Assembly (NCBI GenBank): GCA_022712735.1
Contig: JAFLKA010000395.1
Span: 1 to 9,739 of the forward strand
Length of the DNA stretch: 9,739 nucleotides
DNA from: Marinosulfonomonas sp.
Lineage (GTDB): Bacteria; Pseudomonadota; Alphaproteobacteria; Rhodobacterales; Rhodobacteraceae
Reading direction: 5' to 3'
A program made the translations under genes and the position numbers. How positions within the stretch are numbered: the stretch's first letter is position 1; every line of letters starts with the position of its first letter. This document shows positions 1 through 9,739 of the stretch, in pieces. A model generated the notes under the pieces. It was not told where the DNA came from. It saw only the letters and a program-made list of their open reading frames with translations, and searched no databases.

Positions 1-18
1 CGCGGCGGGGCTGTTGAT

Positions 19-855
19 TTGACCACATTCGTTTTTCTATCCGTCATGGGGGCAGCGCTGCTGCACGCCATCTGGAATGCGCTGATCAAAACCGGCGGCG
101 ACAAGCTGACGGGGATGCTGATCATGACCGTGGTGCAGGGCTTCATGGGGCTGGCGATTGCCACAACCCGCGCCATGCCACAGGGCGAGGTCTGGTTCTG
201 GGTTATCGGATCGGGCCTGCTGCATTCAGCCTATAAATTCTTTCTGGCCTTTGCATACGAGCAGGGCGACCTGAGCCGCGTTTACCCGATTGCACGCGGG
301 GCAGCCCCGATGATGGTGATGGTTGTCAGCATATTGTTCCTGACCGACGTGATCAGCGGATTTGAACAGATCGGCATTGCCCTGCTGGGGCTTGGCATCT
401 TGTTGATGGCTCACGGGGTTTTCGCCAACGGCGAGTCCCGACGGCTGGTGCCGCTGGCGCTATGTTCGGCCATCGCCACCGCCGCCTATTCGCTGGTCGA
501 TGGCATGGGCGCGCGGGTGGCGGGGGATGCGGTTATGTTTGTGGCGTGGCTGTTTGTGTTTGACGCGCTCGGGTTTGTGCCCGTGGCTTACGGGTTGCGC
601 GGGCGCACGGTTTTTATCGCCAAACCACGGGCCTGGGCTTTGGGCATGGCCGCTGCCGTGGCGTCATACGGGGCCTATGCTATTGCGGTCTGGGCGATGA
701 CGGTGGCACCGATTGCGCTGGTGGCGGCGTTGCGCGAAACGTCGATATTGTTTGCGGTGTTGATTGGCTGGGTGGTGTTTGGCGAGCGGATGAACAAGGG
801 CAAGATCGCAGCCGTCGCATTGATCGTTGCGGGTGTAATTCTTACGCGTCTTTAG
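19..855 (+). CDS. DMT superfamily (EamA-type) permease
   Basis: Predicted inner-membrane transporter of the drug/metabolite (EamA) family; the substrate is unknown. The 278-residue product is almost entirely hydrophobic, with about ten membrane segments in two repeated halves. Family features include an N-terminal segment containing HAIWNALIK (about residues 16-24), the YPIARG motif near 89-94 at the end of the first half, and the C-terminal block with ALRETSILFAVLIGW and FGERM followed by a last helix. The start is a TTG at 19. It is the only start codon in frame within the window, but the frame is open to base 1, so an upstream start outside the window cannot be excluded. The gene converges on the phosphatidylcholine synthase gene, and the two stop codons lie inside each other's coding sequence (14-base overlap). 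The family call is secure; the substrate is not. Confidence 0.88.
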   Translation: MTTFVFLSVMGAALLHAIWNALIKTGGDKLTGMLIMTVVQGFMGLAIATTRAMPQGEVWFWVIGSGLLHSAYKFFLAFAYEQGDLSRVYPIARGAAPMMVMVVSILFLTDVISGFEQIGIALLGLGILLMAHGVFANGESRRLVPLALCSAIATAAYSLVDGMGARVAGDAVMFVAWLFVFDALGFVPVAYGLRGRTVFIAKPRAWALGMAAAVASYGAYAIAVWAMTVAPIALVAALRETSILFAVLIGWVVFGERMNKGKIAAVALIVAGVILTRL

Positions 856-1537
856 CGGGAATAATCTGTTGCAAGATGCCTGCGCTGATCAGGTAAATAC
901 TGGTCACAACCAGCCCCCAATGGGCCCAGCTTTCTGGATGGAAATCGACCCACGCGGCCCATCCGGCAAAGAATGTCCACCCCAGCGCCATCGGCAATGT
1001 AACGCTGCGCCAGCGTTCAGTGCGCACAGGGTGAACGAATTTTAGTGGGATGAACATGGTGATGGACAGGCCGACCACGAGGGCTAACATCAGCCAGTAA
1101 TTTGGTTCTAGCGCGAACAGGACCAGCACAACCATATTCCAGCAACCGGGGAATCCTGAAAACGAATTATCCTTTGTTTTCATACGTGTATCTGCGAAAT
1201 ATAGGGCGCTGGCAAAGATGATTACGATGATCATTATCCAGCCGGTCCAGTTGGGTAAAAGCCCCGATTTGAACAGGGCAAATGCGGGGATAAACACATA
1301 GGTCAAATAATCGATAATCAGGTCCAGCAGCTCGCCGTCGATTTGCGGCGCATAGGTTTTTACATTGTATTTTCGCGCCAATGGCCCGTCGATCCCGTCG
1401 ACGAAAAAGGCCACAACCAGCCAGAGGAACATCATATCCCATTTCTGATCCACAGCGGCCAGCATAGCCAACATGGCCAGAACCGCGCCGGTGGCGGTGA
1501 ACAAATGAACTGATATGGCGCGCAATTGTGCTGTCAT
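842..1537 (-). CDS. pcs: Phosphatidylcholine synthase (CDP-alcohol phosphatidyltransferase)
   Basis: Inner-membrane enzyme that condenses choline directly with CDP-diacylglycerol to give phosphatidylcholine and CMP, the Pcs route found in many alphaproteobacteria. The 231-residue protein has about eight membrane segments. It carries the CDP-alcohol transferase signature in its Pcs form, DGx2ARx12Gx3Dx3D: D50-G51, A54-R55, G68, D72 and D76, with a 12-residue spacer after AR in place of the usual 8. The N-terminal stretch around SVHLFTATGA is also typical of Pcs. The ATG at 1537 follows an AGGGA element at very short spacing. Upstream lies about 220 bases containing a dead xerC fragment, so the gene probably has its own promoter, although I could not pick one with confidence. 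Its 3' end overlaps the convergent permease gene by 14 bases. Confidence 0.93.
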   Translation of the reverse strand: MTAQLRAISVHLFTATGAVLAMLAMLAAVDQKWDMMFLWLVVAFFVDGIDGPLARKYNVKTYAPQIDGELLDLIIDYLTYVFIPAFALFKSGLLPNWTGWIMIIVIIFASALYFADTRMKTKDNSFSGFPGCWNMVVLVLFALEPNYWLMLALVVGLSITMFIPLKFVHPVRTERWRSVTLPMALGWTFFAGWAAWVDFHPESWAHWGLVVTSIYLISAGILQQIIPAKDA

Positions 1538-1572
1538 ATCCCTGTCATGGACGAAAATTTGAGCGGGTGCAA

Positions 1573-1587
1573 ACCCCTAACGGGGGT
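1573..1587 (-). terminator. Small GC-rich hairpin, possible terminator or pcs leader structure
   Basis: ACCCC (1573-1577) pairs perfectly with GGGGT (1583-1587) around a 5-base loop. Read on the minus strand it lies after the DMT permease gene and its xerC remnant and about 36 bases before the pcs start. It could end transcription of the DUF484-xerC-DMT operon, but only a short TTT follows the stem, so a rho-independent terminator is not well supported. A leader element of pcs is the alternative. Confidence 0.25.
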
Positions 1588-1624
1588 GGGTAATGAATTC
1601 CTTACCTTTGATTTTGATACTAAA

Positions 1625-1785
1625 ACGGGGGCCAGGGTCGGGTAGGGGCGTGAACCTCGCGTTCTGATATAACCGCTGGGTGTGGTGATTATCGGGATGG
1701 CGAACGAATGGTGTGCGGTGTGGCGGTGCAGGCAGGTCCAGTTGTATGCGGATGGTATTCATTGCCGTTTTGATAGGGCCGCGCC
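1625..1785 (-). pseudogene. Decayed 3' fragment of xerC (vestigial duplicate)
   Basis: This stretch is a degenerate copy of the 3' part of the complete xerC gene located about 1.1 kb away on the same strand. Aligning 1697-1765 with 2797-2873 by eye gives 60 identical bases out of 69, with gaps of 1 and 7 bases that destroy the frame. In protein terms the remnant reads AMNTIRIQLDLPA where XerC has AMEATRMQLGLPA. Weaker similarity extends upstream to about 1785 and downstream to about 1625, where the copy also lacks roughly 60 bases corresponding to the SAGGDLRAIQELLGHAS region of XerC. All nine mismatches in the core change a G or C of xerC to A or T, as expected for DNA no longer under selection. 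The catalytic HxxR and Tyr regions are broken, so no recombinase can be made. The stop codon of the neighbouring DMT gene (1759-1761) lies inside the fragment. Confidence 0.82.
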
Positions 1786-2643
1786 CGAGATCAGAATGAC
1801 CGCAATCCCGACGACTGAAAGGGTGTTTGTGGTTGTGCCCCACAACATAAAGGCCCAGAGGCTTGCGAAAATCAGAAACGAGTATTCGATTACCGCGACG
1901 TAAGATGGCGTGCCGATCCGGTAGGCTTGTGAAATGCAGCTTACCGCGATGACCGCACCGACCGCCTGAAACAGGGTCAACCAGAGGAAGCGGCCTGTTG
2001 GGGCTACCCAGCCCCGGGTTAAGAAGGTCTGGTCATCGGACGGGAAGACGGTGAAATAGATCAGCAGCACAAGGCTGATCAAGCCGATGGTCAGGAATAT
2101 GCCAATGGTCAGGGTGATCGGGCTTTCCTTGGCGCAAGTGTGCGGTGTGAGCAACATCCCCAGCCCATAGAACACCCCTGCGGCCAGCGGCAATAGCGAG
2201 AGTTTGGACAGGGCTTGCAGGTCAGGTTGCAAAAGCAGCAACACGCCAGCAAATCCGGCAAGGATCGCCATGAGCTGGAACAGTGTAATACGGGCCGCGA
2301 ACAACAGGGCGGAAAATAGCAGCACCCAGATCGGGGCGCTGAACAGGCCGGCAGCTGCCTGTGCGACCGGCAAAACACCAAGGGCGGCGAAATAGATTAG
2401 AAGTCCTGTAGATACAGTCAGGCTGCGCAGGGCCAGTCTCCCCCAGTTAACCGGTCGCAAGCTATGCGAGGCCATCATCCCCATGACCAGCAGCAACGGG
2501 ATCGCTAGTAGGGTGCGCACGACCTGAAATTGCCATATCCCGGCTTCCTTTGAGACGCTGAAAACGAAATTGTCGATGAAGCTGAGGACTGCCGAGGCAA
2601 ACAAGGCCAATAGAGCGGCGCGGGCATTCGGATTGGCGAACAT
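1759..2643 (-). CDS. DMT superfamily (EamA-type) permease, between xerC and its remnant
   Basis: Second predicted inner-membrane transporter of the EamA family, 294 residues with about ten hydrophobic helices; the substrate is unknown. It is not a close copy of the permease at the left edge. Typical features are the first-half stretch YFAALGVLPVAQAAAGLFSA (about residues 84-103) and a second EamA half ending near residue 290. The ATG at 2643 is preceded by an AAGG element at good spacing and lies only 11 bases after the xerC stop, so the gene is probably co-transcribed with DUF484 and xerC. The last roughly nine codons, ending SKRQ-stop, lie in DNA homologous to xerC but read in another frame. 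Its natural C-terminus may therefore have been replaced when the gene arrived. Transporters of this group include exporters and vitamin or nucleoside-derivative importers, and nothing here decides between them. Confidence 0.85.
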   Translation of the reverse strand: MFANPNARAALLALFASAVLSFIDNFVFSVSKEAGIWQFQVVRTLLAIPLLLVMGMMASHSLRPVNWGRLALRSLTVSTGLLIYFAALGVLPVAQAAAGLFSAPIWVLLFSALLFAARITLFQLMAILAGFAGVLLLLQPDLQALSKLSLLPLAAGVFYGLGMLLTPHTCAKESPITLTIGIFLTIGLISLVLLIYFTVFPSDDQTFLTRGWVAPTGRFLWLTLFQAVGAVIAVSCISQAYRIGTPSYVAVIEYSFLIFASLWAFMLWGTTTNTLSVVGIAVILISGAALSKRQ

Positions 2644-2654
2644 GTGGCGTTACC

Positions 2655-3581
2655 TTATGCCCGTGGATGGGTCTTGTCATAGACTTCCATCAGCCGCGCG
2701 GTATCGACCGAGGTATAAGCCTGCGTGGTCGACAGCGAAGCGTGGCCTAGCAGTTCCTGAATGGCACGCAGATCACCACCCGCACTTAGCAAGTGAGTGG
2801 CGAACGAATGGCGCATCGCGTGCGGTGTGGCGGTGGCGGGCAGGCCCAGTTGCATGCGGGTGGCCTCCATTGCTTTTTGGATGGCGCGGGGCCGCAGGGG
2901 GCCGCCGCGCACGGCGCGAAACAACGGGGCGGTGGGGTCCAACGGGTGGGGGCAGATGCGTAAATAGCGGGCGACGGCGGTGCGGGCGGCGTCAATCACC
3001 GGCACGATGCGGGTCTTGTTGCCCTTGCCGGTGATGCGCAGCACGTCGGGCAGGGGGACGTCGGCACCGATTAGGGACAATGCCTCGGATATCCGCAAAC
3101 CGCAGCCATAAAGCAGGGTGATCACGGCGGCGTCGCGGGCGGCGACCCATTCGTTTGCCGACTGGAATTCGACGGTTTCGATCATCGCGCGGGCGGCGTC
3201 TTCGGCCAGCGGGCGCGGCAGTTTTTTCTGGAAGCGGGGCGAGCGGGCGGACAGGACGACCGTGGCGTCAAACCCGTCGCGTTCGGACAACCAGCGATAA
3301 AAGGATTTCACGGCAGACAGGGATCGCGCCAAGGATCGCGCCGAAACCCCGCGCCCGCGCTCGTGCGCCATCCATGCGCGGATGTCGGTGACTTTGACCT
3401 GTTTAAGGGGCGCAAGACCGGTGGCGTCGCCAAAATGTCCGGTGATGAAGGCAAGGTAGCCGAGCAGATCGGTGCGATAGGCCTCGATCGTATTATCGGC
3501 GGCGTTGTTCAGGGCTTTGATTGTGGTCAGCCATTCCTCGAGCGTATCAGTAGCCGCAGGAGATATGGCGCACAGGTTCAT
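2655..3581 (-). CDS. xerC: Tyrosine recombinase XerC
   Basis: Site-specific tyrosine recombinase that acts with XerD at the dif site to resolve chromosome dimers before cell division. The 308-residue protein has an N-terminal SAM-like DNA-binding domain (about 10-100), including the pattern TIEAYRTDL and the SLSAVKSFYRWL helix. The C-terminal catalytic domain (about 125-305) carries the full active-site set: R163 in GLRISEAL, K186 in GKGNKTR, H254 and R257 in HAMRH, H280 in LLGHASLS and the nucleophile Y289. The length is normal for XerC. The ATG overlaps the DUF484 stop by four bases (ATGA), implying translational coupling. The DUF484-xerC pairing favours a housekeeping Xer protein over a mobile-element integrase. 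A decayed copy of the 3' part of this gene lies beyond the adjacent DMT gene. Confidence 0.95.
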   Translation of the reverse strand: MNLCAISPAATDTLEEWLTTIKALNNAADNTIEAYRTDLLGYLAFITGHFGDATGLAPLKQVKVTDIRAWMAHERGRGVSARSLARSLSAVKSFYRWLSERDGFDATVVLSARSPRFQKKLPRPLAEDAARAMIETVEFQSANEWVAARDAAVITLLYGCGLRISEALSLIGADVPLPDVLRITGKGNKTRIVPVIDAARTAVARYLRICPHPLDPTAPLFRAVRGGPLRPRAIQKAMEATRMQLGLPATATPHAMRHSFATHLLSAGGDLRAIQELLGHASLSTTQAYTSVDTARLMEVYDKTHPRA

Positions 3582-4285
3582 GACAACCAGCGACGCATGG
3601 CCCGTTCAAATACACCGGCAAAAAAGGCTAGCAAATCAGTGCCCTGGTTGGGTTTGAAATGATGCGGGTCCTCAGAACCCATCACCAGCATACCGGGCAA
3701 ACGACCATTGCCAAAATCGAGCTTCAGAGCGGCCTCGGAACGGATCCAGTCAAAGGCTTCGCCATAGATAACGTCGGTCTCGGGTTTGATCTGGCGCAGG
3801 GTCACTTGGCGCGAGGTGCTGCGTTTGCCGTTTGTTAGATAGCTTTCGATAAAACCGGGTTCGGCGACGTTCAACACATCGCCAAGACGTTTTACCGCTG
3901 GGTCATTTTCGTTTTGCACGGATTCCAGCACCAGACGGACACAATCGACGCCCAGAATATCGGCAACTTCGCCGTTCAGATCACGCAGGAAATTTTCAAA
4001 CTCGGCGGGGTCGAGCATCCGTAGGATGGCGCGGTGTACCTGATTGGTGCCCGCCAGATTTTCGTAAGCGGCGGCTATGACAGAGCGGTGGGTATCCTCA
4101 AGCCGGTCCAGACGCGCCTCGAGCCGTTCCATGGCGATACCGCGTAAGTCTATGATATTGCTGCCCATTTGGGCCTCATTGGCTGATACAAGCGCACGCA
4201 TCAGGTCTTTGTCTTCCAGAATAACATCCGGATCTGCGATCAGCTTGTCACGCAGCTGTTCCAACTGTTGTGCGGTGTTTGTCAT
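3578..4285 (-). CDS. DUF484 family protein
   Basis: Cytosolic protein of the DUF484 family, whose C-terminal part is GAF-like. The family is commonly encoded beside xerC, and its biochemical role is not established. I place the start at the ATG at 4285, giving 235 residues beginning MTNTAQQLEQLRDKL. It follows an AAGG element at suitable spacing, and the typical DUF484 opening (LIADPDVILEDKDLM) comes soon after. The frame also has an ATG at 4348, but that lacks a ribosome-binding site and coincides with a likely -35 element, so it is probably untranscribed. The N-terminal third is helical and rich in Glu, Arg and Leu; the remainder includes DVDCVRLVLE-like sequence and GMLVMGSED near the C-terminus. 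It is the first gene of the DUF484-xerC-DMT operon. Confidence 0.88.
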   Translation of the reverse strand: MTNTAQQLEQLRDKLIADPDVILEDKDLMRALVSANEAQMGSNIIDLRGIAMERLEARLDRLEDTHRSVIAAAYENLAGTNQVHRAILRMLDPAEFENFLRDLNGEVADILGVDCVRLVLESVQNENDPAVKRLGDVLNVAEPGFIESYLTNGKRSTSRQVTLRQIKPETDVIYGEAFDWIRSEAALKLDFGNGRLPGMLVMGSEDPHHFKPNQGTDLLAFFAGVFERAMRRWLS

Positions 4286-4318
4286 GCCTGCCTTACCATA
4301 TTTGCCTTGGTTTTCCGT

Positions 4319-4348
4319 ACTATAGACCGATTTATTCAGGTAAGTCAT
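4319..4348 (-). promoter_or_regulatory. Candidate sigma-70-type promoter of the DUF484-xerC-DMT operon
   Basis: On the minus strand, ATGACT (4343-4348, 4 of 6 matches to the -35 consensus) and TATAGT (4319-4324, 5 of 6 to the -10 consensus) are separated by 18 bases. Transcription would begin near 4312, giving a leader of about 26 bases to the ATG at 4285. This placement supports 4285 as the DUF484 start rather than the ATG at 4348. Confidence 0.5.
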
Positions 4349-4439
4349 GGGGTTTTTCGGCGGCGGGGCGTGCAGATCGGCAAGCGTGTTTTGGGGACAA
4401 CAGAAACGGGCGGCTGAGGTGCGGATTTGAGGGATATGA

Positions 4440-4461
4440 ATTGCATATGAATCGCATATGA
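4440..4461. repeat. Two tandem 11-base repeats, AT(T/C)GCATATGA
   Basis: ATTGCATATGA (4440-4450) is followed directly by ATCGCATATGA (4451-4461), with one difference. A partial third unit, GGATATGA, lies immediately before them. Each full unit contains the palindrome CATATG, and the 11-base period is about one helical turn. The array sits roughly 90 bases upstream of the candidate DUF484 promoter, at the edge of the gene-poor stretch. It could be an operator, but nothing shows which protein would bind it. Confidence 0.45.
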
Positions 4462-4552
4462 CAAAATGCGCGTTAGGGATTTAAGTCGATTGTGGTGGAT
4501 GGCGGCTGTGAGCCCAAAGTGCTGGACGCTGCGCGCTCCTCAGATGGCGGCA

Positions 4553-4579
4553 ATGCGCAGATAGTGACCTTTGCAAAGT
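4553..4579. repeat. Interspersed repeat, left copy
   Basis: This 27-base core begins ATGCGCAGATAGTGA and ends TTTGCAAAGT. It recurs at 5977-6003 with one mismatch in the same orientation. Weaker similarity extends left (to about 4525) and right through an A/GCGGCC-type stretch. The right end of the core contains the 10-base palindrome CTTTGCAAAG. I see no coding capacity or flanking target duplication. Confidence 0.75.
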
Positions 4580-5013
4580 TACGTGGACGGCCCTGAGCTG
4601 CCTTTCACGTACACTACCGTCGCCGCAGCGCAGCTTCCCTAGACCAGCCGTTCGCCGATCCTGCAGCATTTTGGTTGGCCAAATTGCGGGACTTTCCGGA
4701 CCTTCTCTGTAGCTGACACAACCGGAGCGAACGGCCAATATCAGCTGTGTCTCACTAGGCAGATCTAGTTGATTCAGCATCATATTGGCCGCCGTGATCC
4801 GTCCAACTCGACCATGGGTTTATTGCGTTACAGAAGTTAAATTCGGTTCGGATGGCGCACCTGGGTCTTCACTAGTGTTTCCCACAGGTCTAAGTTCTAT
4901 CTGGAATAGTCTAGGAATTCCGTTTACGGTATTTTCGTTGGAATGTAATACGAAAGCGCGCGTTATAGTAATATTCTATCTGCGTCATATTCCAGTATTA
5001 AAAATTTGAACGC
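4580..5013. other. Gene-free stretch before the sulfotransferase remnant
   Basis: No convincing gene is visible here on either strand. The left part (to about 4745) is GC-richer and continues from the interspersed repeat. The right part (about 4800-5013) is clearly more AT-rich than the surrounding genes. A TATAGT element at 4964-4969 could serve as a -10 box for the sulfotransferase gene, but no well-spaced -35 accompanies it. The minus-strand open frame at 4481-4783 has no recognisable domain and lies over the repeat, so I do not call it a gene. Confidence 0.5.
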
Positions 5014-5028
5014 GGAAAGGAAGTTATT

Positions 5029-5780
5029 TTGGGTATTACGAGAATAATTCGCCGTGGTTTGCGGGGCCTGAGCGAAAAAAATGCATTCCCAGCTGGCTCG
5101 GTGCATTTTTTGCATGTCGGCAAAGCTGCAGGCACACAGGTTAAACATGTGATTGAGCAGGTCAATCGACCGCGACTGGCCGGAAAGCTGGTGAAACATG
5201 ACCATAGGATAGGTCTGGCTGATCTGCCGCATGATGACGACTATTTCTTCTCGACACGGGATCCAGTAACACGTTTCAAATCTGGTTTTATTCGAGGCTA
5301 CGAAAAGGCCAGCCGCGGATTTATTCCGAATGGTCTGAGCACGAGAGACTGGCCTTTGAGCAGTTCCCTCATGCTAACGATCTAGCTGAATCACTTTTTC
5401 TGACTGGCCAAAAGGGACGGAACGCCACTGCGGCTATTCGATCAATAGGGCACTGCTCTCGAAATCTCGTCGATTGGTTTAAGTTCTGCGGGAACCTTTT
5501 CGAACTTCGTCCGCCAATTTGGATTATTCGACAAGAGAATTTTTCGGCTGATCTCGGCATATTACTCAAACGCATTGGCCACGACGGCCCAGTGGATCTG
5601 GCCACAGGCGAAACCGCCTCTCACGCGAACGATTATGACGAGATCCCGAACCTCAGCGACACTGCTAAGACAAACCTGCGCCGCTGGTATGTGCAGGACT
5701 ACGAGTTTCTAGAAATGTGTGAGACTTGGATGGACGAGAACATCGACAACGCGTCACTCTCAAGCCCGACGCAAGGCTGA
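5029..5780 (+). pseudogene. Sulfotransferase family 2-like gene with a single-base frameshift
   Basis: Encodes a PAPS-dependent sulfotransferase of the Sulfotransfer_2-like group, which transfers sulfate to carbohydrates or other acceptors. The TTG start at 5029 follows a strong AAAGGAAG ribosome-binding site. The first frame has the 5'-phosphosulfate loop FLHVGKAAGT (residues 27-36) and the 3'-phosphate loop RDPVTRFKSGF (77-87). It then leaves the family pattern and stops at 5385. The adjoining frame continues it exactly, reading FYSRLRKGQPR and then YSEWSEHERLAFEQF, and stays open to the TGA at 5778-5780. Adding one T to the four-T run at 5286-5289 joins both parts into a protein of about 250 residues, a normal length for the family. 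The gene lies alone between two copies of an interspersed repeat, and its upstream DNA is AT-rich, suggesting transfer. A sequencing error or programmed slippage in the T-run are alternatives to true inactivation. Confidence 0.85.
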
Positions 5781-5976
5781 CCGGTTCCGACTAAGGGGTA
5801 ATGTTCCAGCAATGAAGACACTGAATTTGGATGCAATCCTAACGGTAGCAAAATCCGCAACCCAGTCGTTTGTGACCATCGCAGCGAATGACTGGAATCT
5901 GCCCGTTCTGTCGATGCGGCATATCCGCTTTGGGGTTGGGAGCCGCCGTTTGCTGTGGCATGCACCAACGGCAGAA
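5781..5976. other. Repeat-like non-coding stretch after the sulfotransferase
   Basis: No convincing gene is visible. A + strand frame from the ATG at 5812 runs about 58 codons to a TAG at 5986, but its end lies inside the right copy of the interspersed repeat, and its Trp- and Arg-rich sequence matches no family I recognise. The sequence has the patchy composition of a degenerate interspersed repeat. Confidence 0.45.
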
Positions 5977-6003
5977 ATGCGCAGATAGTGAACTTTGCAA
6001 AGT
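5977..6003. repeat. Interspersed repeat, right copy
   Basis: Direct repeat of 4553-4579, with 26 of 27 bases identical. In this copy the right end forms a perfect 12-base palindrome, ACTTTGCAAAGT (5992-6003). Similarity outside the core is weaker but visible on both sides. Together the two copies bracket the broken sulfotransferase gene and about 1.4 kb of DNA. Confidence 0.75.
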
Positions 6004-6280
6004 GAGGGGAGCGGCCAAATCCGCCCTCCGCCTCCTAGTCGAGCACTGCAGTGCTACTTTCGAAGAGCAGACCTTCGATATTTGCTGAAGCCTACTCTTG
6101 CACGACACGTCAGCTATGTGTGGGCATACTTAACGTTCACGTCAGACATCACGCGCGTTTTCGATAATATTGTGGCTGGTGTTTGCATACAAGATGTAGC
6201 ATCTATTCGAAATCGATTGAGATTCTAACGGGGTCTCATAATTCTAAGTAGTTTCCCTACGGCGAGTTCGTCGCAGGCGT
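6004..6280. other. Gene-free stretch upstream of the metal-uptake operon
   Basis: No convincing gene is visible. The right end (about 6215-6280) should contain the promoter of the downstream operon. It holds two ATTCTAA heptamers in the same orientation (6222-6228 and 6241-6247, 19 bases apart) and a short TGAGA...TCTCA inverted repeat. I could not identify a -35/-10 pair with normal spacing. Confidence 0.4.
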
Positions 6281-6292
6281 AAAGGCGCAAAC

Positions 6293-6688
6293 GTGCATCG
6301 ACCGTTAAGGAAATTCAGGGTGTTGGGGTTTGTCCCGGTTATGGCTTGGCTGTTCATACAGCTGGTCATGATCAGCATGTGGAGCCCCGGAGTCTCTGCC
6401 TCGCCAGCTCTGGCCGGGCAAGCGGTGGTTATCTGTACCGGCGACGGGATTGTCACGGTCTTTTTCGATGTGGATGGTAATCCGATTGAAGGCGATTCGC
6501 AGTCATCGCAGCCCTGTACCTGGTGTACAAGTTTCAGTGGTCCACCAACCTTGACCCAAGAGATACAGCCAGCCAGCTTAGAATTGCGTCTGGCGGATTA
6601 TAGCTATTCCAACCAATCAAATGTGATCTGGCAACCACGCAAAACCTGCGACGGGTTCCCCATCCGCGCTCCTCCGATCAAAGCCTGA
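6293..6688 (+). CDS. Small exported DUF2946-like protein
   Basis: Predicted 131-residue protein with an N-terminal hydrophobic segment (about 12-40) that serves as a signal peptide or anchor, probably cleaved near SALAG (about 38-42). The mature part has the DUF2946 pattern: ICTGDGIVTVFFD near 47-59, a CTWC motif (75-78) and a basic C-terminus ending near RAPP (125-128). The Cys pair suggests metal binding or a disulfide, but the function of the family is not established. The GTG start at 6293 follows an AAAGG element at good spacing. The gene lies 71 bases before the binding-protein gene and probably belongs to the same metal-uptake operon. DUF2946 genes are often found near TonB-dependent receptors and metal systems. 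The family call rests on pattern only. Confidence 0.7.
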   Translation: MHRPLRKFRVLGFVPVMAWLFIQLVMISMWSPGVSASPALAGQAVVICTGDGIVTVFFDVDGNPIEGDSQSSQPCTWCTSFSGPPTLTQEIQPASLELRLADYSYSNQSNVIWQPRKTCDGFPIRAPPIKA

Positions 6689-6759
6689 ACCATAGACGAC
6701 CTTCGTGGCCATCCTTGTGGTGTGCCCACCCTCTATGCTTGCTTTATCGGAGAAACCAA

Positions 6760-7869
6760 ATGCACAGCAAATTTATTGCAGGACTCGCGGCATGTGCCGT
6801 CAGCCTGACTATGACCGTATCTTCCGCACTGGCCGGAACCATCACCGTAACCGATACCCTTGATCGCACCGTCGAGGTGCCAGACGATGCACAGCGCATT
6901 TTGCTCGGGTTTTATTTCGAGGACTTTTACGCCATCGGTGGTGCCCATGCCTATGACAAAGTCGTCGCCATTTCCCGCCCCGCGTGGGAAGGATGGCGCA
7001 ATTCGCAATGGAAAGCCTATGTGGCCAACAACCCAAATCTTGAAACCCTTGCTGATATTGGCGAGGTAGACGCGGGCACATTTTCCATTGAAACCGCAAT
7101 TGTCGCCAAGCCGGATGTCGCCATTCTGGCTGCTTGGCAATACCGCGCCCTTGGTGATGTTGTTGGCAAACTGGAAGCGGCTGGCATTCCCGTTGTTGTG
7201 GTTGACTACAACGCCCAGACCGTTGAAAAACATATCGCCAGCACGTTACTGATCGGCAAGATTGTGGGGCAAGAAGAGCGCGCAAAAGAACTGGCAGATA
7301 GCTATGCAGCAGCTGTTGCCGATGTTGAAACGCGGATCGCTAAAGCAGGCGGAAACAAACCTGTCGTTTATGTCGAACTGGGCAACAAAGGCGCCGATGA
7401 ATACGGCAATTCCTACGGAAACGGTATGTGGGGCGGTGTTATCACCCTAGCAGGCGGCACCAATATTGCGGCAGGAAAGGTCGAAAACTGGGGCGCTCTG
7501 AACCCCGAGTATGTGATTACCTCGAACCCTGATGTGATATTTCTGGCAGGATCGGATTGGCTCAGCAAACCTAAAGCCGTGTTGATGGGATTCGGTGTGG
7601 GCGCAGATGTCACCCGCGACCGGATGCAACCCTACACACAGCGCGCAGGATGGGCCGAAATGAAGGCTGTGCAAAACGGTCAGGTCCATGCGGTTTATCA
7701 TGGCGGCGCCCGCACGCTCTATGATTTTGCCTATCTGCAATACATCGCCAAGGTTCTGTATCCAGATGCCTTTGACGATGTTGACCCGATGGCAAATCTG
7801 GCAGCGCATTACGCAAAATACATGCCCATCACACCAGAAGGCACCTTCATGGTCAAACTGGCAGACTAA
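6760..7869 (+). CDS. ABC transporter periplasmic binding protein for a metal complex
   Basis: Periplasmic receptor of the helical-backbone class (PF01497, the FecB/BtuF/siderophore group) that delivers a ferric siderophore, haem, cobalamin or similar ligand to the permease. I choose the ATG at 6760 over upstream TTG 6715 because GGAGAA precedes it at good spacing and a standard signal peptide follows, with cleavage expected after SSALA (residue 25). The product is 369 residues. Its mature sequence opens with the family pattern TVTDTLDRTVEVPDDAQRI. It continues with ETIVAKPDVAIL-like sequence (IETAIVAKPDVAIL), AAGIPVVVVDY, and a second lobe with NPDVIFLAGS and WAEMKAVQNGQVHAV. No lipobox Cys follows the signal, so the protein should be soluble. 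It is followed by a hairpin and then the permease and ATPase genes. The ligand cannot be assigned. Confidence 0.9.
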   Translation: MHSKFIAGLAACAVSLTMTVSSALAGTITVTDTLDRTVEVPDDAQRILLGFYFEDFYAIGGAHAYDKVVAISRPAWEGWRNSQWKAYVANNPNLETLADIGEVDAGTFSIETAIVAKPDVAILAAWQYRALGDVVGKLEAAGIPVVVVDYNAQTVEKHIASTLLIGKIVGQEERAKELADSYAAAVADVETRIAKAGGNKPVVYVELGNKGADEYGNSYGNGMWGGVITLAGGTNIAAGKVENWGALNPEYVITSNPDVIFLAGSDWLSKPKAVLMGFGVGADVTRDRMQPYTQRAGWAEMKAVQNGQVHAVYHGGARTLYDFAYLQYIAKVLYPDAFDDVDPMANLAAHYAKYMPITPEGTFMVKLAD

Positions 7870-7875
7870 ATGAAT

Positions 7876-7901
7876 GGGCAAGGGCTTCGCGGTCCTTGCC
7901 C
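7876..7901 (+). promoter_or_regulatory. Intercistronic hairpin between binding-protein and permease genes
   Basis: GGGCAAGG (7876-7883) and CCTTGCCC (7894-7901) form a perfect 8-base stem around a 10-base loop that can add inner G-U and C-G pairs. It starts 6 bases after the binding-protein stop and ends 25 bases before the permease start. Such hairpins often protect the 5' message or partly stop transcription so that binding protein is made in excess of membrane components. The following TCAATTTCTT is only a weak U-tract, so partial termination or 3'-end protection is likelier than a full stop. Confidence 0.7.
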
Positions 7902-7926
7902 TCAATTTCTTGCGGGAAATAAATCC

Positions 7927-8976
7927 ATGTCCAGAACAACAAACGACGCCCAAACGCGCCTGTCTTTTGCCTCTCGCCGCTTGATGTGGTTGGGAGCGTC
8001 CTCGATGCTATTGCTCTTGGCGACCTTGACCGACATTCTGATCGGTCCCGCCTTTTTGAACGTGTTTGAGGTGCTGCGGGCGTTGATAAACCCAACAGGT
8101 GCGTCTGATCCAATGGTCGTGACAATCGTCCATGCGATCCGATTGCCAATGACGTTAATGGCCTTGATCGTCGGTGCGTCATTGGGCATCGCTGGGGTGC
8201 AAATGCAAACCATCCTCGGTAATCCGCTGGCCAGCCCCTATACGCTGGGGTTTTCCGCTGCGGCGGGTTTTGGCGCGGCCATCACCATCTTGTTTGGCCT
8301 GCAACTGCCACTGGTCCCGCAAATGACAGTGCCCGTTGCGGCCTTTGCGGCAGCATCGCTGGCCTGCCTGATGGTCTACGGCCTTGCCCATATTCGTGGG
8401 GTCACCGCCGAAGTCATGGTGCTAGCGGGCATTGCCACGCTTTTCCTGTTTCAGTCGCTGCAATCGTTGGTGCAATATCTGGCCGCCCCTGAAGTGCTGC
8501 AAGAAATTGTATTCTGGCTGTTCGGTTCCATGCTCAAAGCCACGTGGTTTTCGGTCTGGGTCTCGGGCAGCATATTATTGCTTAGCCTTGCCATGCTGAT
8601 CCCGAACATGTGGCAGCTCACGGCGCTACGGCTGGGTGACGAGCGTGCCGCCAGCCTTGGGGTTAATGTGCCCCGCTTGCGCCGCCGCGTGTTTTTCATC
8701 GTGTCATTACTCACTGCCGGAGCAGTCGCATTCGTTGGCACCATCGGTTTTGTCGGGCTGGTCGCCCCGCATTTGGCGCGCATGCTGGTGGGCGAAGATC
8801 AACGCATCCTGATCCCGGCATCAGCGGTGTTTGGTGGGTTGTTGATGGTCGGCGCATCCATTGCCTCAAAGCTGCTGTCACCCGGTGCTGTGGTGCCTGT
8901 GGGGATTGTCACGGCCCTGGTCGGCGTGCCCTTTTTGTTCGCCCTGATCCTGACTGGCAAAAGGAGGCATTGGTGA
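7927..8976 (+). CDS. FecCD-family ABC permease
   Basis: Inner-membrane subunit that carries the metal complex into the cytoplasm, probably as a homodimer in a type II importer. I place the start at ATG 7927 (349 residues, beginning MSRTTNDAQT) after GGGAA. The in-frame ATG at 7870 would translate the intercistronic hairpin and has no ribosome-binding site. About nine to ten membrane helices are visible. FecCD hallmarks in order are RLP (72-74), GASLGIAGVQMQ (83-94), NPLASPYTLG (99-108), the cytoplasmic loop LGDERAASLGVN (236-247) that contacts the ATPase, and GFVGLVAPHLARML (274-287). The stop overlaps the ATPase start (TGATG), so translation is coupled. The length and motifs are intact. Confidence 0.93.
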   Translation: MSRTTNDAQTRLSFASRRLMWLGASSMLLLLATLTDILIGPAFLNVFEVLRALINPTGASDPMVVTIVHAIRLPMTLMALIVGASLGIAGVQMQTILGNPLASPYTLGFSAAAGFGAAITILFGLQLPLVPQMTVPVAAFAAASLACLMVYGLAHIRGVTAEVMVLAGIATLFLFQSLQSLVQYLAAPEVLQEIVFWLFGSMLKATWFSVWVSGSILLLSLAMLIPNMWQLTALRLGDERAASLGVNVPRLRRRVFFIVSLLTAGAVAFVGTIGFVGLVAPHLARMLVGEDQRILIPASAVFGGLLMVGASIASKLLSPGAVVPVGIVTALVGVPFLFALILTGKRRHW

Positions 8977-9739
8977 TGCTGAAGATCGAAAACATCGGTG
9001 TCGGGTATGATGGCACTGCGGTTCTACATGCAATCAACGCACAGTTTGAACCGGGCACATTGACTGCCCTTGTCGGGCCAAACGGCACCGGAAAATCCAG
9101 CCTCCTAAAAGCAATGGCAGGACTTACTCCATCCAAGGGCGTGATCCGGTTGGATGATGTGGCCCTGAACAACGCGGGGCGGCTCAGTTCGATCGCCTAT
9201 ATGCCGCAAGACACGGGCGCGCAAAGTTCTCTAACGGTGCTAGAAGTGGTGCTGTTGGGCCGCCTGCGTTCGCTTGGTTTGCGGATTGGTGACGATATCA
9301 GGGCGCAGGCGGTGACGGCCCTACAACGCTTCCGGCTTGAGGCGTTTCAGGATCGTGCGATTGGCGCCTTAAGCGGTGGGCAACGCCAACTGGTGTTTTT
9401 GGCGCAATCGCTGTTTCGTGATCCTGATGTATTGCTGCTGGATGAACCCACTGCCGCACTGGATTTGCGCCACCAGCTGGTTGTGCTGGAACGTATTAAC
9501 GAGGCCTGCCATACCAGCAACATGATTGCAGTTGCCGCCATGCACGACCTAACACTGGCTGCGCGGTTTGCCGACCGAATTATATTTTTGTATGATGGCC
9601 AGATTGTCGCCGACGGGCCTCCGATCGAAGTCCTAACCCCGCAAATCTTGGAGCAGGTTTACCGTGTTGCCGCCGAAGTGCAGCTGGGCCCAAGCGGAAC
9701 ACTACACGTTTCGCCGGTGCGGGCACTTAGTGATGTAAG
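8976..9739 (+). CDS. FecE-type ABC transporter ATPase (incomplete at right edge)
   Basis: Cytoplasmic nucleotide-binding subunit that powers the FecCD permease. The frame from ATG 8976 is open for 254 codons and has no stop before the window ends, so the C-terminus is missing, probably by only a few residues given the usual 250-265. All motifs are present: Walker A GPNGTGKS (34-41), Q-loop Q78 in YMPQD, signature LSGGQ (132-136), Walker B VLLLDEP (152-158), D-loop ALD (161-163) and the switch His H190 in AMHD. The stretch SLTVLEVVLLGR (85-96) is typical of the siderophore/haem/B12 subgroup. A strong AAGGAGG at 8961-8967 precedes the start; GTG 8973, just upstream in frame, is an alternative start. 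The gene overlaps the permease stop by one base. Confidence 0.92.
   Translation, partial: MLKIENIGVGYDGTAVLHAINAQFEPGTLTALVGPNGTGKSSLLKAMAGLTPSKGVIRLDDVALNNAGRLSSIAYMPQDTGAQSSLTVLEVVLLGRLRSLGLRIGDDIRAQAVTALQRFRLEAFQDRAIGALSGGQRQLVFLAQSLFRDPDVLLLDEPTAALDLRHQLVVLERINEACHTSNMIAVAAMHDLTLAARFADRIIFLYDGQIVADGPPIEVLTPQILEQVYRVAAEVQLGPSGTLHVSPVRALSDV

Follow-up and report, generated by a model that had tools for sequence, protein, structure and literature searches.

A transporter gene with an intact recombinase gene on one side and a broken copy of it on the other raises the question of whether the broken copy marks the way in which the transporter arrived. We examined this for a stretch of 9,739 nucleotides of Marinosulfonomonas sp. 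(assembly GCA_022712735.1, contig JAFLKA010000395.1, positions 1 to 9,739), which we call the window. Its minus strand carries the genes DUF484, xerC, a DMT transporter and pcs, in that order, and a short piece of xerC stands between the DMT gene and pcs. The initial annotation took this piece for a decayed 3' part of xerC, as would be left if incoming DNA had recombined within the gene and displaced its native 3' end, or by a tandem duplication followed by loss. We conclude that it is most likely a local copy made after the DMT gene had arrived, and thus ordinary genome wear, not an entry scar. The features on which the argument turns are listed by position.

842..1537, minus strand: pcs, phosphatidylcholine synthase-like (Pfam CDP-OH_P_transf; NCBIfam phosphatidylcholine synthase models are best, below their cut-offs).
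1542..1608, no strand: pcs-side spacer, with a gapless match to the xerC-pcs spacer of G010 and G404, which lack the DMT gene (shuffle-tested alignment).
1609..1697, no strand: stretch not recognisable as xerC tail (tail comparisons, blastn and nhmmer).
1698..1755, minus strand: decaying copy of an inner xerC piece (54 of 58 columns identical; four C>T/G>A changes; 8 bases missing).
1759..2643, minus strand: DMT (EamA) transporter, an accessory insert between xerC and pcs (Pfam EamA; same site in G400 and G399).
2655..3581, minus strand: xerC, tyrosine recombinase of 308 aa, intact (Pfam Phage_integrase and SAM-like N domain; DUF484-xerC-pcs order in relatives).
2798..2863, minus strand: inner segment of xerC, nt 719-784 of 927, the proposed source of the copied piece (alignment with 1698-1755).
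3578..4348, minus strand: DUF484 gene, a conserved xerC neighbour (Pfam DUF484; same place in relatives).

The reading frame of xerC is open across its full length (2655-3581), and the top NCBIfam model for its product is XerC TIGR02224 at 314.7 bits, under the model cut-off of 335.15. The DMT protein matches Pfam EamA in two stretches with 67.6 bits, against a gathering score of 28.2.

Positions 1698-1765 of the window align with 2798-2873 at a score of 76; 1000 dinucleotide shuffles gave a mean of 20.5 and a maximum of 33, and none equalled the observed score. Since the score is far above the shuffle maximum, the similarity between the piece and xerC is real, and the initial annotation was right to see an xerC-like fragment beside the DMT gene in the orientation of the intact xerC, with the DMT gene (1759-2643) lying between the two. 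Bases 1756-1765 are the end of the DMT gene and are nearly the same in the sister genome G400. With these last DMT-gene bases set aside, the piece is limited to 1698-1755, which corresponds to xerC nt 719-784 in 58 aligned columns; 8 bases are missing from it, which the alignment places in three gaps (1, 3 and 4 bases). The homology covers codons ~240-261 of 308 and ends at nt 784 of 927, so that the last 47 codons are absent, and the intact gene continues for 143 bases beyond the equivalent segment, stop codon included. The piece is therefore an inner part of xerC; the description of it as the 3' part of the gene did not hold. Selection does not seem to act on the patch, which is in decay. 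A 61-aa open frame at 1577-1762, whose start overlaps the DMT stop codon (ATGA), spans the piece. This frame matched a single database protein, which was identical and labelled as the window's own, and NCBIfam gave no match; we therefore rejected the piece as part of a conserved small gene.

The DMT gene is an addition at this site, as the initial annotation had supposed. Among 11 fetched Rhodobacteraceae loci (L001-L010, L050), pcs is the next gene after xerC in 10, L006 having no pcs in its stretch, and the DMT gene occupies the xerC-pcs site in none. Within the genus group of G010 (eight genomes), the DMT gene was found at E<=1e-60 in two, G400 and G399, each time in the interval from xerC to pcs. 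The distance from xerC to the following pcs is about 70-80 bases in G010, G404 and G401. In G403, which lacks the DMT gene at this site, ~14 kb of other genes separate the two; in G405 they are on different contigs; and in G402 pcs was not found at E<=1e-40. Because relatives have pcs directly behind xerC without the DMT gene, we regard the latter as an insertion. Matches to it are found in 3/394 genomes of the family at E<=1e-80 and in 5/390 of the order at E<=1e-100. Relatives with 61-65% identity are encoded on six plasmid records from Sulfitobacter, Yoonia, Paracoccus and Roseovarius (E<=1e-60), and one genome among 346 of the family of G658, the Hoeflea olei genome, has a match (E<=1e-100; 71% identical). 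The plasmid records and this single match mark the gene as accessory.

Three minor observations may be added. A 9-base repeat with one difference, AAGGTAACG behind xerC and AAGGTAAGG at 1600-1608, might be a target duplication left when the DMT gene was inserted. In G717 a partial second DMT relative (L172 11861-12043; 61 residues, 66%) lies ~5 kb from the full copy. The insert of G403 (L142 5160-19300), read from its translations, holds what we take to be a MATE transporter gene, a gene for polyphosphate kinase, a sugar ABC transporter together with a regulator of the LacI type, and genes for dTDP-rhamnose.

The xerC piece is missing from G400 and G399, which are the only others found to carry the DMT gene at this site. 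Their spacers between the DMT gene and pcs measure 83 bases (G400) and 91 bases (G399, including 12 up to and including its stop codon), and that of the window measures 221. When 45 loci, the window included and the duplicates L094, L100, L109 and L121 left out, were searched for an xerC piece at most 1.5 kb behind xerC, the window alone gave a piece, at score 81, and the next score was 38. Pieces of this kind as a general feature behind xerC were rejected on this count. The next-best score belongs to L112, where the xerC end is repeated exactly over 19 bases immediately after the gene.

Over the 58 columns the piece agrees with the window's own xerC in 54, with that of G400 in 52, with those of G010, G403, G404 and G402 in 48, with G399 in 46, with G405 in 41 and with G401 in 40. 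The own xerC is the best source among the nine, which places the source nearby in the same genome, and it includes a base peculiar to the window: a silent G at nt 777 is common to the piece and the window xerC and occurs in none of the eight other genus xerCs. The four differences between the piece and the own xerC are C>T or G>A throughout; of these, only the T at nt 744 also occurs elsewhere, in G405, and the other three are peculiar to the piece. If the piece were a scar of the arrival of the DMT gene it should predate the split from G400, and these site matches speak against this. They suggest instead that the piece is younger than that split, a placement that rests on few sites, as the piece is short.

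The genes themselves agree with a shared history of the window and G400. Four-fold divergence is similar in xerC (44/184, 0.24), the DMT gene (40/164, 0.24) and pcs (23/109, 0.21), in keeping with a common descent of the three genes. NG86 gives xerC and pcs a dS of 0.37 each and the DMT gene one of 0.26; the lower value of the DMT gene leaves room for its somewhat later transfer. Identities between the two genomes are 88.4% for DUF484, 90.2% for xerC, 91.7% for the DMT gene, 91.1% for pcs and 93.0% for the DMT1 end.

We favour, with a probability of roughly 0.6, a structural history in which the DMT gene entered first and a patch of xerC was separately copied into the spacer afterwards, where it is now decaying. 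In the first step, an ancestor that the window shares with G400, and perhaps with G399, would have gained the DMT gene immediately after the xerC stop codon, within an interval whose content changes often in the family. Later, and as sampled in the window lineage only, ~66 bases of the own xerC (codons ~240-261) would have been copied, with their orientation kept, to the part of the spacer that immediately follows the DMT stop codon, ~1.1 kb from their source. The likely route is a short-patch copy during repair or replication, joined at 3-4-base matches, CCA and GCCA. In the window the xerC piece is bounded by ATACCA and GCCATCCCGATA, and in G400 the corresponding ACACCA and GCCATCCTGATA enclose 30 other bases; the CCA and GCCA at the ends of the piece are thus common with the G400 spacer. 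We infer the molecular mechanism, and the microhomology joints of the copying, from such matches; the GCCATCC.GATA motif beside the piece, common to the window and G400, is weak by itself, since 48/500 shuffles reach it.

Short-patch copying in bacteria takes place by double illegitimate recombination and by template switching, and the former is known in Acinetobacter, while work on the latter includes a study of E. coli. The window resembles illegitimate copying at microhomologies in that a short piece from elsewhere sits in a spacer with 3-4-base matches at its ends, but differs in that it is known as a decayed fossil alone. A study of double illegitimate recombination is cited in PMC8116780. 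More generally, a gene between whole and broken copies of a recombinase gene need not mark a gene-entry scar, and here relatives that have the cargo but not the broken copy speak for the proposed sequence of events.

The 160 bases after the piece were aligned with the xerC tails of the window, G399, G400, G401, G402, G404, G405 and G010. Between 134 and 339 of 500 shuffles were as good as the real comparison against the eight tails when gaps were penalised strongly (gap-averse scoring); with loose scoring, 142 to 433 of 500 were equal, except for G399 (36). We also simulated ageing of the window's own xerC tail, which was substituted at set rates and cut to 89 bases (500 runs each). At 7, 12 and 20% substitution no run (0/500) was as low as the score of 13 observed for the first 89 bases after the piece; the fraction rose to 0.6% at 30%, 8.8% at 40% and 23.4% at 50% substitution. 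On the chance-level tail comparisons and this simulation, 1609-1697 was rejected as an aged xerC tail. Neither the remaining window sequence nor the compared loci gave a match to the stretch (blastn and nhmmer of 1538-1758).

The pcs-side section (1542-1608) resembles genomes that lack the DMT gene, and this is the remaining puzzle for the local-copy reading. Its alignment with the xerC-pcs spacers of G010 and G404 is gapless and begins at the xerC stop codon. Loose scoring gave a score of 68 (0/500 and 0/1000 shuffles), and with gap-averse scoring 0/500 shuffles were as good for G010 and 1/500 for G404. A match with gaps was found to the bases before pcs in G403 (0/1000), and the spacer of G401 shows no similarity (308 and 432 of 500 shuffles). 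The fit to G400 (30/1000) and G399 (38/1000) is worse than that to the DMT-less G010, G404 and G403. The spacers of G400 and G399 are alike (8/1000), whereas their comparison with DMT-less spacers is at chance level (176 to 279 of 1000). As the window and G400 are sisters by gene identity, the spacers conflict with the gene tree. In addition, nhmmer gives a collinear alignment of the whole window spacer with the combined xerC 3' end and spacer in G010 (E 0.0099) and in G404 (E 0.03).

These spacer data would fit a late crossover between an xerC-DMT-pcs chromosome and the xerC-pcs chromosome of a close relative. An illegitimate joint would have linked the DMT stop codon to xerC codon ~240, and the xerC tail would have been replaced later; either direction of transfer works, and the proposal amounts to the earlier displacement idea moved to a later time. 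A single joint would account for the piece and the spacer together. The old-type spacer indeed begins at the xerC stop codon, and the weak collinear match with the xerC end and spacer of G010 and G404, the common orientation of xerC and the piece, and the lower NG86 dS of the DMT gene are all consistent with it. However, the 89 bases from the piece to the spacer are not recognisable as xerC tail, so that a second replacement is needed, and because the piece equals the own xerC in the aligned columns save for four transitions, the partner must have had nearly the same sequence in this region. Since a crossover explains the spacer and not the missing xerC tail, we keep it as the main rival to local copying and regard it as rather unlikely.

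A wider form of this proposal concerns the interval as such. Both xerC and pcs were placed in 95 genomes, using the 150 best listed xerC places (363 of 394 genomes matched) and 101 pcs places (341 of 394 matched); this sample is not random, as it consists of best-scoring places and omits pcs places of genomes absent from the xerC list. The two genes are at most 300 bases apart in 59/95 genomes and 342-1285 bases apart on the same strand in 18/95; they lie otherwise on one contig in 6/95 and on different contigs in 12/95. Of 20 fetched intervals, 19 (L152-L169 and L171; L170 was left out) had their longest frame compared. A protein of ~195 aa with CxxCH near its end is common to the intervals of G079, G176, G205, G236 and G308, and its G308 member had no match in NCBIfam. 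The frames of G299 and G332 match over 27 residues, and the remaining intervals matched none. None of the 19 frames matched any of nine window proteins, the DMT protein included. The surroundings of xerC and pcs are thus a place of frequent change in the family, and this gene turnover is a modest, testable side result; our literature search found no account of an xerC hotspot in Rhodobacteraceae. One could go further and view the interval as a recurrent exchange site, with the window recording a crossover between cargo-bearing and cargo-free chromosomes that was joined inside xerC. Housekeeping xerC sequence would then be a landing pad for the swapping of single-gene cargo. We consider this extension improbable.

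Entry of the DMT gene by recombination within xerC, in which a new 3' end came in and the native end was displaced to become the fragment, is less probable still. It would produce the geometry of xerC, DMT gene and fragment, and it suits the patchy distribution of the DMT gene in the genus group, the family and the order. Against it, G400 and G399 carry the DMT gene without the fragment (though both may have lost it), the fragment is nearest to the window's own xerC, and it contains no xerC 3' end. Nor is the xerC of the window clearly chimeric, as the initial annotation had suggested it might be. Identity between the window and G400 over five parts of the gene is 88, 90, 90, 93 and 91%, so that this part-wise comparison gives no clear mosaic. 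Most comparisons give a higher identity in the fourth part (nt 690-790), to which the copied piece belongs (e.g. 87% against 72-77% elsewhere in G402), as is expected of a conserved stretch.

Two known kinds of system would leave a comparable arrangement. Integrative elements that integrate into the 3' end of a gene leave their cargo between the intact gene and a partial copy. The window cargo is flanked in this manner, but the insert has no recombinase gene, lacks the xerC end to the stop codon and consists of a single gene. Homology-facilitated illegitimate recombination, described in PMC6382021, combines one-sided homology with an illegitimate joint. Applied by us to the geometry of the window, the process as outlined there would give xerC, cargo and xerC end; it predicts a displaced 3' end dating from cargo entry, which was not found in the window.

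Tandem duplication of xerC and the DMT gene followed by loss, the other route offered by the initial annotation, would account for two xerC copies in direct orientation, but we hold it to be very improbable: neither a second DMT remnant nor a second xerC-DMT joint was seen in 1538-1758 (blastn, nhmmer), and the pcs-side sequence is an xerC-pcs spacer. An assembly error in the record is equally hard to credit, as the piece shows four transitions and three gaps relative to xerC and a misjoin of the same sequence would show none.

The remainder of the window gave a few further observations. Its section 4517-9739 had no blastn match against 20 loci. The short frames at 5029-5385 and 5592-5780 had no match in NCBIfam, and the first had none in Pfam. 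The window encodes a second DMT transporter besides the gene at 1759-2643; its nearest database protein is from Marinosulfonomonas sp., at 94% identity. A 47-base direct repeat (83%), at 4546-4592 and 5970-6016, flanks 1.4 kb of broken-looking short frames.
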